Shown here: positions 12,969-23,366 of the stretch, piece after piece | How positions within the stretch are numbered: the first letter of the stretch is position 1 | How the letters are laid out: every line of letters begins with the position of its first letter | From: Alteriqipengyuania halimionae | Lineage (GTDB): Bacteria; Pseudomonadota; Alphaproteobacteria; Sphingomonadales; Sphingomonadaceae | NCBI RefSeq assembly: GCF_009827575.1 | Contig: NZ_WTYR01000001.1 | Location: 744,001-808,000, forward strand | Reading direction: 5' to 3' | Length of the DNA stretch: 64,000 nt | Program-made: the position numbers and the translations under genes | The notes under the pieces: generated by a model | The model's database searches: none | What the model was told of the DNA's origin: nothing | Seen by the model: only the letters and a program-made list of their open reading frames with translations

Positions 12969-13254
12969 CGGTTCGTCGCTCCTGCAGCACGGATGGACCG
13001 CGTGTTACACAGTCCAGACAAGAAAAAGCATCCGATTGCACGACGCCCGGTCAGCGGGAAAAGCGATGAAGGGGCGGGAAGTATCATGCCGTCCTTCTGC
13101 CCGTTTGCGTGCGGGTAGGAAAGCCTCGGATCATGTTGCGATGCCAGTGCATTGGATTATGTGGGCGGCAGAAAAACGGTCCCGGCATACGCAGGGACAT
13201 TCAACGCACACGAGACAAGGCCCGCCTTCACAGGGGGCGCAGAAAGAGACGAAC
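12969..13254 (+). other. divergent intergenic region and long leader of the carboxynorspermidine dehydrogenase gene
   Basis: No credible gene is seen in these 286 bases. Several stem-forming stretches lie in the plus-strand leader. One is CTGCCCG with CGGGTAG around 13098-13119. Another is GTCCC (13179-13183) with GGGAC (13194-13198), close to the start codon. A structured 5' leader on a polyamine gene is suggestive, but I cannot match it to a known RNA family. Confidence 0.35.
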
Positions 13255-14496
13255 ATGAGCAAGGTATTGGTGATTGGCGCGGGTGGAGTGAGCTCGGTCT
13301 GCGTGCACAAGATGGCCCAAGTAAACAAGGATGGGAACGCCGACATTTTCGGCGAAATCCACCTCGCGAGCCGCACCAAGTCGAAGTGCGACAGCATTGC
13401 CGCCAGCGTGAAAAAACGCACTGGCGAGACGGTGGCGACCTACGAGATCGACGCCGAGGAAGTCCCGGCGATGATCAATCTCATCCGCAAAATCGAGCCG
13501 AGCCTCGTCGTGAACCTCGCGCTGCCGTACCAGGATCTGCCGATCATGGATGCGTGCCTCGAAGCAGGCGTCGATTACCTCGACACCGCCAATTACGAAC
13601 CCAAGGACGAGGCCAAGTTCGAATACAAGTGGCAGTGGGCCTATCACGACCGCTTCCGGGAAGCGGGCCTGATGGCGCTGCTGGGTTCGGGCTTCGATCC
13701 GGGCGTCACCAGCGTCTTCACCATGTGGCTCAAGAAGCACAAGCTGAAGAGCATTCGCCAGCTCGACATCCTCGATTGCAATGGCGGCGATCACGGCCAG
13801 GCCTTTGCCACCAACTTCAACCCGGAAATCAACATCCGCGAAGTGACCGCGCCCGCGCGGCATTGGGCCAAAAAACCGGGGGAAGCCGGCGAATTCGTCG
13901 AGACCCCGGCAATGGGCAAGAAGATCACCTTCGATTTCGAAGGCGTGGGCGAGAAGAACGCCTACATGATGTATCACGAGGAGCTCGAAAGCCTTGCCAA
14001 GTTCAATCCCGAACTGGAGCGCGCGCGCTTCTGGATGACCTTCGGCGATGAATACATCAAGCACCTGACCGTGCTGCAGAATGTCGGCATGACCCGGATC
14101 GACCCGATCAAGTACAAGGGCCAGGAAATCATCCCGCTGCAATTCCTCGCCGCCGTGCTGCCCAAGCCCGAAAGCCTCGGCGAAACGACCAAGGGCAACA
14201 CCAATATCGGCGTCATCGCCACCGGCGAGGCGCTCGACGGCAGCGGCGAAAAGACGTTCTACATCAACAATATCTGCAGCCACGAAGCGGCTTACGAGGA
14301 AACGGGCAACCAAGCCGTGTCCTACACCACCGGCGTGCCCGCGATGATCGGCTCTGCGATGATGGTCACTGGCAAATGGTCGGGCGACGGCGTGTTCAAC
14401 ATGGAAGAAATGGACCCCGATCCGTTCATGGACATGCTCAACGAACACGGCCTGCCGTGGCAGGTGAAGGAACTCGACGGGCCGGTGGATTTCTGA
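13255..14496 (+). CDS. carboxynorspermidine/carboxyspermidine dehydrogenase (saccharopine dehydrogenase family)
   Basis: This enzyme (CASDH/CANSDH) condenses aspartate semialdehyde with putrescine or diaminopropane, then reduces the imine with NADPH to give carboxyspermidine or carboxynorspermidine. The 413-residue protein has an N-terminal Rossmann motif ([19 protein letters not shown]), then [20 protein letters not shown], the signature [17 protein letters not shown], and a C-terminal domain with [14 protein letters not shown]. Length and motifs match the polyamine branch rather than lysine-forming saccharopine dehydrogenase. The ATG at 13255 follows AGAAAGAGACGAAC. Its pathway partner nspC is 2 kb away and a basic amino acid decarboxylase 7 kb away, which together form the alternative spermidine route common in alphaproteobacteria. 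Confidence 0.92.
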
Positions 14497-16577: not shown

Positions 16578-17750
16578 ATGGAAACCAAAGCCGGCGATCC
16601 GGGCGCCTTTCGCCATTTCGACCTCAGCCGGGTCGACAGTCCCTCCTTCGTCATCGACGCGGCCAAGCTGCGCGCCAATTGCCAGATACTGGCCGAGATC
16701 CGCGACGAGGCCGACATCAAGGTGCTGGCCGCGCTCAAGGCGTTCAGCATGTGGAGCGTCGCCCCGCTGATCGGGGAATATCTCGACGGCGTGTGCACCT
16801 CGGGCCTGTGGGAAGCGCTGCTCGCTTCCGAACATTACGATGGCGAGATCACGACCTATTGCGCGGCCTACAAGCCCGAGGACATCCCCGAGGTCTGCCG
16901 GCTGTCCGACCATGTGATCTTCAACTCCCCGGCGCAGATTGCGCGCGCCGCGCTGATCCTCGAGCAGGAGCGCGCGCGCGGCAACGATTTCGACGTCGGC
17001 CTCAGGATCAATCCGCAAGTGCCGACCGGCGAAGTGCCGCGCTACGATCCCTCCAGCCCCGGCTCGCGCCTGGGCTTCCCGATCGACCAGCTAACCGACG
17101 AGCATATGCAGGGCGTCACCGGCATCCACTTCCACAATCTGTGCGAGCAGGATTTCGAGCCGCTCCACCGCACCTGGGACAAGGTGTTCGATGCGATCGA
17201 GCCGTATTTCGACCAGCTCGACTGGATCAATATGGGCGGAGGACACCACATCACCCGCGCCGATTACCAGCGCGAGGAACTGGTCGAATTCCTGAAGGAC
17301 GCAAAGGAAGACACCGGCTGCGAAATCTATCTCGAGCCGGGCGAGGCGGTGGCGCTCGATGCGGGGATTCTCGTCGGCACCATTCTCGATACCGGGGTCA
17401 ACGAAGTGCCGTTCGCGATCACCGACGTTTCCGCCACCTGCCACATGCCCGATGTGATCGAGGCACCCTATCGCCCGGCGATGCTGGACGAGCAGGGCGA
17501 GGGCACACCGGTGCGGCTCGGCGGTCCGTCCTGCCTCGCGGGCGACGTGATCGGCGATTACATGATGCCCGGCACATGCGAGCCCGGCGCGCGCTTCGCG
17601 TTTCTCGACCAGGCGCATTACTCGATGGTCAAGACAACGACCTTCAACGGTGTGCCGCTACCCTCGATCTGGCTGTGGGACAGCGAGACCGACCAGCTCG
17701 AGCAGATCCGCAAGTTCGGCTACCGCGATTTCCGCGACCGGCTGAGCTAG
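16578..17750 (+). CDS. nspC: carboxynorspermidine/carboxyspermidine decarboxylase
   Basis: NspC decarboxylates carboxyspermidine or carboxynorspermidine to spermidine or norspermidine, the last step of the alternative polyamine pathway. The 390-residue protein is a fold-III PLP decarboxylase. The PLP lysine lies in VLAALKAFSMWSV (K54), the glycine-rich phosphate loop in WINMGGGHHIT (about 217-226), and the catalytic cysteine from the partner subunit in GGPSCLAGD (C319). KAFSMW and GIHFHNLCEQ distinguish it from ornithine and diaminopimelate decarboxylases. It is transcribed divergently from the serine hydrolase and ends in a 4-base overlap with the convergent DUF3137 gene. The carboxynorspermidine dehydrogenase is encoded at 13.3 kb on the same strand. 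Confidence 0.94.
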   Translation: METKAGDPGAFRHFDLSRVDSPSFVIDAAKLRANCQILAEIRDEADIKVLAALKAFSMWSVAPLIGEYLDGVCTSGLWEALLASEHYDGEITTYCAAYKPEDIPEVCRLSDHVIFNSPAQIARAALILEQERARGNDFDVGLRINPQVPTGEVPRYDPSSPGSRLGFPIDQLTDEHMQGVTGIHFHNLCEQDFEPLHRTWDKVFDAIEPYFDQLDWINMGGGHHITRADYQREELVEFLKDAKEDTGCEIYLEPGEAVALDAGILVGTILDTGVNEVPFAITDVSATCHMPDVIEAPYRPAMLDEQGEGTPVRLGGPSCLAGDVIGDYMMPGTCEPGARFAFLDQAHYSMVKTTTFNGVPLPSIWLWDSETDQLEQIRKFGYRDFRDRLS

Positions 17751-21228: not shown

Positions 21229-21256
21229 TTGCAGCGCTCGCGAAAGAGACTATATG
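21229..21256 (+). promoter_or_regulatory. sigma-70-type promoter of the decarboxylase leader
   Basis: TTGCAG (21229-21234) and TATATG (21251-21256) are separated by 16 bases, a good match to a vegetative promoter. Transcription would begin near 21262-21264, just before the first stem of the structured leader (GCTGCC at 21265). This agreement supports both calls. Confidence 0.6.
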
Positions 21257-21261
21257 CGCGG

Positions 21262-21344
21262 CTCGCTGCCCCAAGGGGACTTCCTAACCGCAAGGCAGCT
21301 TGTCGTTTCATGGTTTCAACAAACCGTTTTGGGGGTCCCTTGAG
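21262..21344 (+). ncRNA. speF-like structured 5' leader (candidate riboswitch) of the decarboxylase gene
   Basis: GCTGCC (21265-21270) pairs with GGCAGC (21294-21299). GGTTT (21312-21316) pairs with AAACC (21321-21325) over a CAAC loop. CAAGGGGAC (21272-21280) is complementary, apart from one bulged G, to GTCCCTTG (21335-21342), which adjoins the GGGGG binding site (21331-21335). The upstream segment could therefore switch between internal pairing and trapping the ribosome binding site. A speF RNA motif is known upstream of alphaproteobacterial ornithine decarboxylase genes. The location and general architecture fit, but I could not align it to the family model. The ligand is unproven. Confidence 0.6.
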
Positions 21345-22559
21345 TTGCACCATTTCCCTGACGCCAAGGCTGTAGTCGGCGCCCTTTCGCCCGACGAACC
21401 TGTGATCCTCGACCGGCCGCACGCGGCTAGCCGCGCAGCGCGTTTCTTCGTCGAGAAATTCCCGGGCAAATCGCTTTACGCGGTGAAGGCCAATCCTTCG
21501 CCCGATCTGCTGCGCGTGCTGTGGGAAGCCGGCGTGACGCATTACGACGTCGCGTCGATCGCCGAAGTGCGCCTCGTGCGTTCGATCCTGCCGGAGGCGA
21601 CCTTGTGCTTTATGCATCCGGTCAAGACGCCGCGCGCGATCGCCGAGGCCTATCACGAGCACGGCGTTAAGGTCTTCAGCCTCGACTGCCAGGAAGAGCT
21701 CGAAAAGGTTGTCACTGCCACCCGCGACGACGACGGGAACGACGCTGCCGATCTCGCTTTGCTGGTGCGCCTGCGCGTGTCGTCGGAGCATGCCGAGCTC
21801 TCGCTGGCGAGCAAGTTCGGCGTCGATCTCGCCGATGCGACCGGTCTGTTGCAGTCGACCCGCCAGGTCGCCGACACGTTCGGCATCTGCTTCCATGTCG
21901 GCAGCCAGGCGATGACGCCCTTCGCCTATGTCCAGGCGATGGAGCGCGTGCGTGCGGCGATCGTCGCAGCCTCGGTCACGGTCGACGTGATCGATGTGGG
22001 CGGCGGTTTCCCGAGCGTCTATCCCGGCATGGAACCGCCGCCGCTCGAGGATTATTTCGGCGCGATCCACAATGCTAATGAATCGCTCCCGATTTCCTAT
22101 TCGTCCGAGCTGTGGTGCGAGCCCGGCCGTGCGCTCTCGGCGGAGTACAATTCGCTGATCGTGCGGGTCGAACGTCGCCGCGGGACCGAGCTGTTTATCA
22201 ATGACGGTGCCTATGGCGCTTTGTTCGATGCCGCGCATGTCGGCTGGCGCTTCCCGGTCCGCAAGGTGACGGCCGAAGGGATGGCAGACAGCGCATCGCC
22301 GCTGGCCGAATTCGCCTTCTATGGCCCGACCTGCGACGATGCCGACTACATGGCTGGCCCGTTCCTGCTGCCCGAGGATATCGGCGCGGGCGATTTCATC
22401 GAGATCGGCATGATCGGGGCCTATGGCGCCACGATGAAGACCGGCTTCAACGGCTTCGGCGGCGCGACGGTCGTCACCGCCGAGGACGAGCCGATGGCCA
22501 GCCTCTATCGCGGCGATCGCGACATCGTGCGCCGCGACAATGTGGTGAGCCTGCGCTAA
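21345..22559 (+). CDS. fold-III PLP ornithine/lysine decarboxylase
   Basis: This enzyme decarboxylates ornithine and/or lysine to putrescine or cadaverine, feeding the carboxyspermidine pathway encoded nearby. The protein of about 404 residues has the PLP lysine in LYAVKANPSPDL (K48), then HYDVASIAEVRLVRSILP, CFHVGSQAM, the phosphate loop DVGGGFPSVYPGM, EPGRALSAE and the catalytic cysteine in GPTCDDADYM. All belong to the eukaryotic-type ODC branch. The TTG at 21345 is preferred because GGGGG lies 9 bases upstream inside a regulated leader and homologues start near HHFPDA. A TTG at 21300 is in frame but would place coding sequence through the hairpin. Substrate preference cannot be read from sequence alone. 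Confidence 0.92.
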   Translation: MHHFPDAKAVVGALSPDEPVILDRPHAASRAARFFVEKFPGKSLYAVKANPSPDLLRVLWEAGVTHYDVASIAEVRLVRSILPEATLCFMHPVKTPRAIAEAYHEHGVKVFSLDCQEELEKVVTATRDDDGNDAADLALLVRLRVSSEHAELSLASKFGVDLADATGLLQSTRQVADTFGICFHVGSQAMTPFAYVQAMERVRAAIVAASVTVDVIDVGGGFPSVYPGMEPPPLEDYFGAIHNANESLPISYSSELWCEPGRALSAEYNSLIVRVERRRGTELFINDGAYGALFDAAHVGWRFPVRKVTAEGMADSASPLAEFAFYGPTCDDADYMAGPFLLPEDIGAGDFIEIGMIGAYGATMKTGFNGFGGATVVTAEDEPMASLYRGDRDIVRRDNVVSLR

Positions 22560-22616: not shown

Positions 22617-23366
22617 ATGAAGAGATATGTCTGGATCGCGTTGGCGGTCGTTCTGTTGGGTTTCAGTCTTTATGTCGGCAAGGTCGTGTGGGACGATCCT
22701 GCTTGGGAAACCACCCAGCCGGAAGTCACCGGCTTGCCGCGCCATTACGCTGACGATGTCCTTGTGTCCGACGACAATCCGGTAGCGCAGATAAAGGTGT
22801 CGGATGCGTACGACTATCTCGGCGGGCAGAAATTCACGCTCTACGGCACGGTCGCAGTCGATCAGTATTTCTACGTGCAACGTGACGAGGCCGGGCATGC
22901 GCAGTCTATCATCCGGCTGCAGTTCGAAAGCGTGCTCCCGGGTGTCGATCACGCTTACGATTATTCCGATGCACCGCTTCGCACGCAGATCGACGGGCTC
23001 GATTTTTTCACGCTGACCGAGGCTGCTTCGACCGGCGGCTTGCTCAATACTCTGTTCCCCTACGGCAAGCCGGGCAGCGACCGCTACCAAGCCCACAGAT
23101 TTCTTGCCTCCCACGGCGTCGAGATACCCGGCGAGTACGCATTCGCGCGCCTGGTACACATCCCGGACGAGGCTGCGCGGCACGAGATGATCGTGTTTTT
23201 CTATGACGACATGCCGAACGTGGGAATAGCGCCTGAGAATTTGGGGCCGGACGGCGCAGGTTCCGAGCAATGGGCGGATATCTCGCACGATCTGCTGGCA
23301 AAAATCACAACCGCCATCTCGTTTGCGCCGGCGCAGGATCGCAACGGCGCAGTTTCATTGGATTGA
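22617..23366 (+). CDS. membrane-anchored protein of unknown function
   Basis: This is a 249-residue product. One N-terminal transmembrane or uncleaved signal helix (about 4-24, VWIALAVVLLGFSLYVGKVVW) is followed by a soluble, presumably periplasmic domain of about 220 residues that is rich in aromatic and acidic residues. It contains KFTLYGTVAVDQYFYVQ and ARLVHIPDEAARHEMIVFFYDD. No cysteines and no motif known to me are present. A GGCGGGAAAACT binding site precedes the ATG, and an operator-like palindrome lies 22 bases further up. The gene stands alone between the decarboxylase and the convergent WYL regulator. Base composition is somewhat less GC-rich than in the flanking genes. Confidence 0.65.
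   Translation: MKRYVWIALAVVLLGFSLYVGKVVWDDPAWETTQPEVTGLPRHYADDVLVSDDNPVAQIKVSDAYDYLGGQKFTLYGTVAVDQYFYVQRDEAGHAQSIIRLQFESVLPGVDHAYDYSDAPLRTQIDGLDFFTLTEAASTGGLLNTLFPYGKPGSDRYQAHRFLASHGVEIPGEYAFARLVHIPDEAARHEMIVFFYDDMPNVGIAPENLGPDGAGSEQWADISHDLLAKITTAISFAPAQDRNGAVSLD

Follow-up and report, generated by a model that had tools for sequence, protein, structure and literature searches.

Introduction

The odc1 motif (uORF-25-1) has been described, with 272 representatives, as a cis RNA that precedes ornithine decarboxylase genes in alphaproteobacteria (Brewer et al., 2021; PMC8632094). According to the section on this motif, the start of an upstream open reading frame (uORF) is always accompanied by a second UUG with only two nucleotides between them, and in E. 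coli reporters with the Sphingomonas echinoides sequence both starts work, the uORF being about 3-fold stronger. The authors suggested a functional peptide, since most of its positions are highly conserved and its length is invariant, and named a riboswitch as one possibility; a signal is not named in the odc1 section (PMC8632094). Their main-ORF reporter comprised the first 8 enzyme codons, and therefore the natural site of the uORF stop is absent from it. In a search of the open-licence literature, no further paper was found under the name odc1 besides Brewer et al. (2021). The speF RNA folds into a long stem-loop with bulges, after which over 150 nt follow until the start codon is reached; when ornithine, putrescine and spermidine were offered to the A. 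tumefaciens RNA, none was seen to bind (Corbino et al., 2005; PMC1273637).

The present study deals with the leader of an ornithine decarboxylase gene in a stretch of 64,000 nucleotides from Alteriqipengyuania halimionae, referred to here as the window. As far as the odc1 section describes the motif, this leader is a member of it. The element is thus already named and published, and what can be offered here is a revision of its mechanism that is testable. To our knowledge, it is unusual for ornithine decarboxylase to be controlled through an out-of-frame start beside its own.

Gene context and predicted promoter

The gene at 21345–22559 on the plus strand encodes a PLP-dependent ornithine decarboxylase with a UUG start (Pfam Orn_Arg_deC_N, 1.1e-33), and the top solved-structure matches of its product are lysine/ornithine and ornithine decarboxylases. 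The nearest named relative is Blastomonas marina, with an enzyme identity of 91%. A gene for a 7TM-GGDEF protein precedes the decarboxylase on the opposite strand, and directly after it, at 22617–23366 on the plus strand, lies an ORF of 249 residues for which neither Pfam nor NCBIfam gave a match at E ≤ 0.001. Further upstream on the plus strand, a likely carboxynorspermidine dehydrogenase (about 13250–14496), read from its translation, and the carboxynorspermidine decarboxylase gene nspC (16578–17750; TIGR01047 with 378 bits, below the cut-off of 409) would represent an alternative spermidine route about 4–8 kb upstream of the decarboxylase, with opposite-strand genes intervening.

The predicted promoter (21229–21256, plus strand) consists of the -35 element TTGCAG (21229–21234), a 16-nt spacer and the -10 element TATATG (21251–21256), from which transcription would be expected to start near 21263; a strict sigma-70 scan did not include it among its predictions. 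From this promoter-like pair to the start region of the decarboxylase gene, the leader spans about 80 nt. In relatives, TATA, TATTT or TATG was found at most 24 nt 5' of the first helix in 151 of 161 distinct leaders, and the best -10 element, sought 3–14 nt before the helix, ends 8–10 nt 5' of it in 131 of them. The sequence-only reading, which had placed a promoter directly in front of a structured leader, is borne out as far as a promoter-like pair is concerned.

Anatomy of the folded leader

The leader is organised around two helices. Helix A, the pseudoknot helix, pairs GCTGCC (21265–21270) with GGCAGC (21294–21299) on the plus strand, as indicated by the pairing itself and by the changes in relatives. 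Helix B, also on the plus strand, pairs AGGGGACTTCC (21274–21284) with GGGGGTCCCTT (21331–21341) over 11 bp in the MFE fold, where it contains the Shine-Dalgarno (SD) sequence and part of the first UUG; judged from the text of the odc1 paper, it is the P1 stem described there (PMC8632094). The SD sequence, GGGGG at 21331–21335 in the window and GGAGG in many relatives (alignment A2), lies 4 nt 5' of the first UUG and 9 nt 5' of the decarboxylase UUG. Between the strands of helices B and A lies the conserved segment AACCGCAA (21286–21293), in which CCGCAA is nearly invariant (alignment A2); it is replaced in L134 and L140, where both helices are kept. An optional linker hairpin, ATGGTTT/AAACCGT (21310–21316 with 21321–21327), shows covariation in one clade, and in many relatives the linker is too short to form it.

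All of the short elements on which the sequence-only reading was built are present in the sequence, namely TTGCAG and TATATG with a 16-base spacer, GCTGCC/GGCAGC, GGTTT (21312–21316) with AAACC (21321–21325) and GGGGG, as is the complementarity it claimed between CAAGGGGAC (21272–21280) and GTCCCTTG (21335–21342). Its pairing on the SD side thus exists and finds some support in relatives, but the true helix is longer, comprising the 11 bp given above. The mutually exclusive pairings that it envisaged have to be abandoned, because helices A and B share no base and their strands alternate, which is the arrangement of an H-type pseudoknot and not of exclusive hairpins. Its central idea of a leader able to trap the ribosome binding site of the decarboxylase agrees with a conserved helix B that is predicted to cover the SD. 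The combined pseudoknot score of the window leader is 42, a value reached by 0 of 60 shuffles (mean 28.6), while its folding energy is not unusual in comparison with shuffles (z = -1.28). The first strands of helices A and B are only 3 nt apart, and the simultaneous full formation of both is doubtful.

Conservation of the leader in relatives

Comparison across related loci indicates that the leader is real and conserved. A total of 192 decarboxylase loci was examined (L001–L025 and L041–L207), of which 191 fit the pattern SD-NTG-NTG; 174 are distinct, including the window. Exact core duplicates were removed; a species may appear twice in the set where two tools supplied it, and the loci L026–L030 and L208–L227, which come from other families and lack the motif, stand outside this count. 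The enzymes of 120 full-length sequences share a mean identity of 76%, the lowest being 49% (500 sampled pairs). Nine of the 174 loci were left out of the helix counts (in 8 the anchor was not found, and L086 is cut off), and the remaining 165 include the 161 distinct leaders used for the helix B pairing and promoter tallies.

Helix A reads GCTGCC/GGCAGC in 142 of the 165 loci, GCAGCC/GGCTGC in 14 and GCCGCC/GGCGGC in 1, with one-sided changes in 7 more; in L005, a strand lying upstream was picked by the script. Among 46 aligned leaders, every cell of this helix is paired and one pair is changed on both sides in 6 sequences, and in L134 and L140 the helix is rewritten as 10-bp versions with other bases. 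For helix B, no double changes were found among the 46 aligned leaders, because its 3' side hardly varies, and its support is therefore the retention of pairing. Its duplex energy averages -18.1 kcal/mol as opposed to -8.8 kcal/mol for shuffled loops (50 distinct loop/tail combinations), and at most 5% of the loop shuffles pair as well in 47 of the 50 combinations, the exceptions being L099, L116 and L206; the shuffles preserve mononucleotide composition and the sequences are related rather than independent. The proportion of 80.9% paired cells in helix B is probably too low, since the alignment misplaces the SD helix in leaders that are one G shorter. In six loci (L012, L047, L062, L095, L116 and L197), extra loop bases, some of them hairpin-capable, stand before the helix B strand; pairing with the SD is still possible in all six, with L116 exceeding only 82% of its shuffles.

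For the structure as a whole, 264 of 500 shuffles contained at least as many double-changed pairs as the real alignment. Within one clade (11 distinct rows), the linker hairpin has 3 of 7 pairs changed on both sides and 98.7% of cells paired, with a covariation score reached by 0 of 500 shuffles and a number of double-changed pairs reached by 63 of 500. As to the covariance check named in the sequence-only reading, a model of the leader (R1) has matches in 212 of the 296 genomes searched in the order, and double changes occur in helix A and in the linker hairpin but not in helix B.

Distribution

All matched rows of model R1 belong to the window's own family, which is also that of the named loci from Novosphingobium, Erythrobacter and Sphingomonas, and the window's genome contains one match. 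In G141, the only listed genome of this family without a match, the decarboxylase search likewise returned nothing at the thresholds applied. Across the class, R1 has matches in 8 of 289 genomes, of which four belong to the window's family and four are weak; none of the four weak matches is followed by a decarboxylase frame within 600 bases. On these counts, the idea that the motif has spread through the remainder of the class was rejected.

Two genomes of another family of the order, G036 (locus L025) and G076 (locus L207), are not among the R1 matches (enzyme identity 72%). Their rewritten leaders are identical over at least 36 nt, and the pseudoknot scores exceed those of 97% and 93%, respectively, of 60 shuffles; in both, an overlapping ORF starts with ATG at a 4-nt offset and stops at codon 7. 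A search for the enzyme with this variant leader in 32 genomes of the G036 family returned only the two known genomes at E ≤ 1e-100.

The overlapping out-of-frame uORF

The uORF (21340–21375, plus strand), which is absent from the sequence-only reading, begins with TTG at 21340–21342, 5 nt before the decarboxylase UUG at 21345 and in a different frame, and runs for 11 codons (TTG AGT TGC ... CTG) to the stop TAG at 21373–21375 inside the decarboxylase gene. Of the 174 distinct loci, 170 have TTG as the first start, 3 have ATG and 1 has GTG, the non-TTG starts being those of L021, L024, L025 and L207. As the search pattern itself requires NTG, the conservation of this codon rests on the 191 of 192 loci that fit the pattern and not on the start tally; the sole non-fitting locus, L103, fails on the SD and has TTG at the first start. 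The two starts are offset by 5 nt in 171 loci, while the other 3 (L025, L162 and L207) have an offset of 4 nt.

The uORF stop falls at codon 12 in 167 of the 174 loci (TAG 150, TGA 14, TAA 3) and at codon 7, 10, 11, 17 or 23 in the remaining 7. Six codons precede it in L025 and L207 and 16 in L100 and L116, where five extra enzyme codons are followed by TAG in the same place (stop codon 17). From the amino acids of the decarboxylases and their own codon usage, 16.45 codon-12 stops would be expected among the 171 offset-5 loci, as opposed to the 167 observed (167 of 172 with L103). Tallies of enzyme codon 10 that are limited to loci with a codon-12 stop have GTA built in, and figures free of this condition were therefore used: where this codon encodes valine, it is GTA in 132 of 133 loci, L103 with GTG being the exception, whereas GTA accounts for 4.2% of the valine codons from codon 15 on in the same genes. 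In L150 and L199, the codon-10 GTA is not part of a codon-12 stop. Where leucine is encoded, the codon is CTA in 19 loci, CTG in 14 (each followed by ATT, which gives TGA), TTA in 3 and CTC in 1.

When changes are counted on a tree of the enzyme (119 full genes), codon 10 shows 2 at its third position, a number as low or lower being found in 2.4% of the downstream third positions. The third positions of the eight overlap codons before codon 10 show a mean of 22.75 changes, compared with 27.96 downstream, in the same 119 genes, and a smaller set (104/116 full-length genes, all with a codon-12 stop) gave 19.4 and 24.3. The identity of the stop changed at least 6 times among 120 loci, with shifted stops counted as states, and the 167 loci encode 125 different versions of the peptide, which end for instance in LTPRL, IARWG or LTHWL. 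This pattern suggests that the start and the stop of the uORF are kept rather than the encoded peptide. The comparison directs attention to a single nucleotide, the last one of codon 10 in the enzyme gene. Replacing it can leave the enzyme unaltered and yet abolish the stop of the uORF, which makes the function of the mini-ORF testable by a single silent substitution.

Three loci, L103 (2880–3060), L199 and L133, are natural losses of the leader fold. In L103 and L199, the codon-12 stop has been lost together with the leader, L103 having an ATG enzyme start and GTG at codon 10 and hence no uORF stop, while L133 has kept the stop. A programmed frameshift into the enzyme frame was also considered and rejected, as there is no common slippery sequence before the stop and the frame offset is 5 nt in 171 loci and 4 nt in L025, L207 and L162.

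Double starts in other families

In nine loci from other families (L210, L243, L248, L249, L250, L253, L262, L025 and L207), the best start candidate is located at the same distance from the lysine motif as the start in the window, 44 codons upstream of it. In 7 of these 9, an out-of-frame NTG lies 4 or 5 nt upstream of the enzyme start, with an SD-like 5-mer exactly 4 nt before it. With a stricter G-count, the layout is found in 6 of the 9 loci compared with 6 of 247 background SD-led ORFs, an NTG at -5 alone being rather common (10.9% of background ORFs). This survey began with 50 loci, of which 10 were dropped because the anchor was missing. The codon-12 stop is kept only in L248; the frame stops at codon 19 in L253 and at codon 25 in L250, and has no stop within 25 codons in L243 and L262. 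The pseudoknot of L253 scores above 98% of 60 shuffles, with a second helix that pairs the spacer and the first start instead of the SD, while in L243, L248, L250 and L262 a pseudoknot was no better than in shuffles. A similar double start thus appears to precede some decarboxylases of other alphaproteobacterial families without a supported pseudoknot; given the few loci and a layout noticed before it was counted, so that the tally is not independent, this is a lead only. In decarboxylases with a longer N-terminus (L208, L212, L222, L223, L258 and L264), the start is often ATGCCATG-like with an out-of-frame start at -5, and the 4-nt SD spacing occurs in L223 as well.

Proposed mechanism and alternatives

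We consider it probable that the odc1 fold controls access to the SD and, with it, the choice between two competing starts, of which the first opens a decoy frame. By pairing the SD and part of the first UUG, the pseudoknotted fold would lower all initiation. Once the fold opens, one SD would serve two UUG codons that are 5 nt apart and in different frames, and a ribosome at the first would make an 11-residue dead-end peptide and leave at the stop inside the enzyme gene, whereas a ribosome at the second would make the enzyme. Enzyme output would then depend on the frequency of opening and on the proportion of ribosomes that take each start. The first frame would act as a decoy and not through its peptide, and the polyamine or cation state of the cell may shift the balance as feedback. 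Polyamines affect initiation at weak sites, as in the polyamine modulon. Comparative evidence bears on three of these steps, namely the conservation of the fold and the retention of both the first start and the stop; the use of both starts was shown in the E. coli reporter for another species (PMC8632094). On the other side, L133 has lost the leader fold and yet keeps the stop, L024 has the double start and the stop with a pseudoknot that does not exceed shuffles, and a pure decoy would need no stop at one fixed codon.

A wider version of start choice is put forward tentatively: what is conserved may be a start-choice device and not the peptide, with the SD 4 nt before the decoy NTG and 8–9 nt before the enzyme start and with a decoy frame that is closed early. 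Such a device would be older than the pseudoknot, polyamines possibly acting directly on initiation, and the odc1 RNA and the fixed stop would have been added later in the Sphingomonadaceae line. Its layout (SD, 4 nt, NTG, 1 or 2 nt, NTG) can be read before short-N-terminus enzymes of several further families of alphaproteobacteria, where a pseudoknot is not supported and the fixed stop is mostly missing.

A metabolite riboswitch, in which the pseudoknot binds ornithine, a polyamine or another compound of the pathway and the SD helix closes or opens in response, is a serious candidate, although we lean against it. A compact pseudoknot that sequesters the SD and carries the nearly invariant CCGCAA would suit it, and the odc1 authors proposed it themselves (PMC8632094). 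The position of the leader before ornithine decarboxylase also speaks for it, with the reservation that this association is no test of exclusivity because the loci were chosen by that enzyme. However, CCGCAA is replaced in L134 and L140 with both helices intact, the unrelated speF RNA bound none of the three compounds offered to it (PMC1273637), and the odc1 section of PMC8632094 contains no binding data.

Two further explanations were considered. Ribosomes that finish the uORF might move some 28 nt backwards to the UUG of the decarboxylase and so promote enzyme synthesis. Reinitiation upstream of a stop codon has a precedent in the MS2 lysis gene, and a stop at one distance in 167 of the 171 offset-5 loci is what such a mechanism would favour. 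It is nevertheless unlikely, as the distances differ in L025, L207, L100, L116, L150 and L162 and the double starts of other families have a late stop (L250, L253) or none within 25 codons (L243, L262). Nascent-peptide control appears more improbable still. Here the 11-residue peptide would halt the ribosome that is making it when ornithine or a polyamine is sensed, as the SpeFL leader of enterobacteria does. The kept stop codon would fit a stalling peptide, and most of its positions are called highly conserved by the odc1 authors (PMC8632094). In contrast, 125 different peptides occur in 167 loci, the third positions of the overlapping enzyme codons, which are the second positions of the uORF, are only mildly reduced in their changes (22.75 versus 27.96), and the number of codons before the stop is 6 in L025 and L207 and 16 in L100 and L116. 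Membership of the speF family, proposed by the sequence-only reading and in keeping with a position upstream of the same enzyme class in alphaproteobacteria, can practically be dismissed, since RF00518 has no match here and exceeds its cut-off in 0 of 196 genomes of the order, and size and architecture differ.

Comparison with known RNA elements

In Rfam 15, none of the families matches the window or seven related loci at the gathering threshold. Accordingly, speF (RF00518) membership was rejected, as the window has no match at the gathering threshold and the leader none at E ≤ 10, and the covariance search with the Rfam speF model, named as a check in the sequence-only reading, gave no significant match; what had been called a speF-like leader is an odc1 element. 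The single weak RF00518 match lies in a protein frame (L031), apparently that of an acyltransferase E2 carrying a lipoyl domain. The leader shares with the speF RNA that it precedes an ornithine decarboxylase-type gene in alphaproteobacteria, but the speF RNA is much longer and of other architecture, and a uORF is not mentioned in the part of PMC1273637 that describes it. With pseudoknot leaders of the SAM-II type, as presented by Corbino et al. (2005), it has in common a single stem with a pseudoknot in a compact alphaproteobacterial leader; the gene context is different, and SAM-II (RF00521) has no match in the window at the gathering threshold.

The likeness to odc1, as the motif is characterised in its section of PMC8632094, extends to every feature named there. 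The gene directly downstream encodes ornithine decarboxylase in an alphaproteobacterium, the extended stem with the ribosome binding site on its right side corresponds to 21274–21284 with 21331–21341, and the pseudoknot between the 5' end and the loop corresponds to 21265–21270 with 21294–21299, including compensatory changes. The two UUG codons with two nucleotides between them are found at 21340 and 21345, and the 11-residue uORF runs from TTG at 21340 to TAG at 21373–21375. The 174 loci differ from the published text in that the first start, the offset, the length and the type of stop vary in rare lineages, with an ATG or GTG start in 4 loci, a one-nucleotide separation in 3 and a stop away from codon 12 in 7; a start is retained throughout and an early stop nearly always. 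As L025 and L207 belong to another family, beyond the reach of model R1, the model of the odc1 authors may not count them. Taken with the variable peptide, these rare exceptions weaken the published view that start, spacing and length are invariant and that the peptide is functional.
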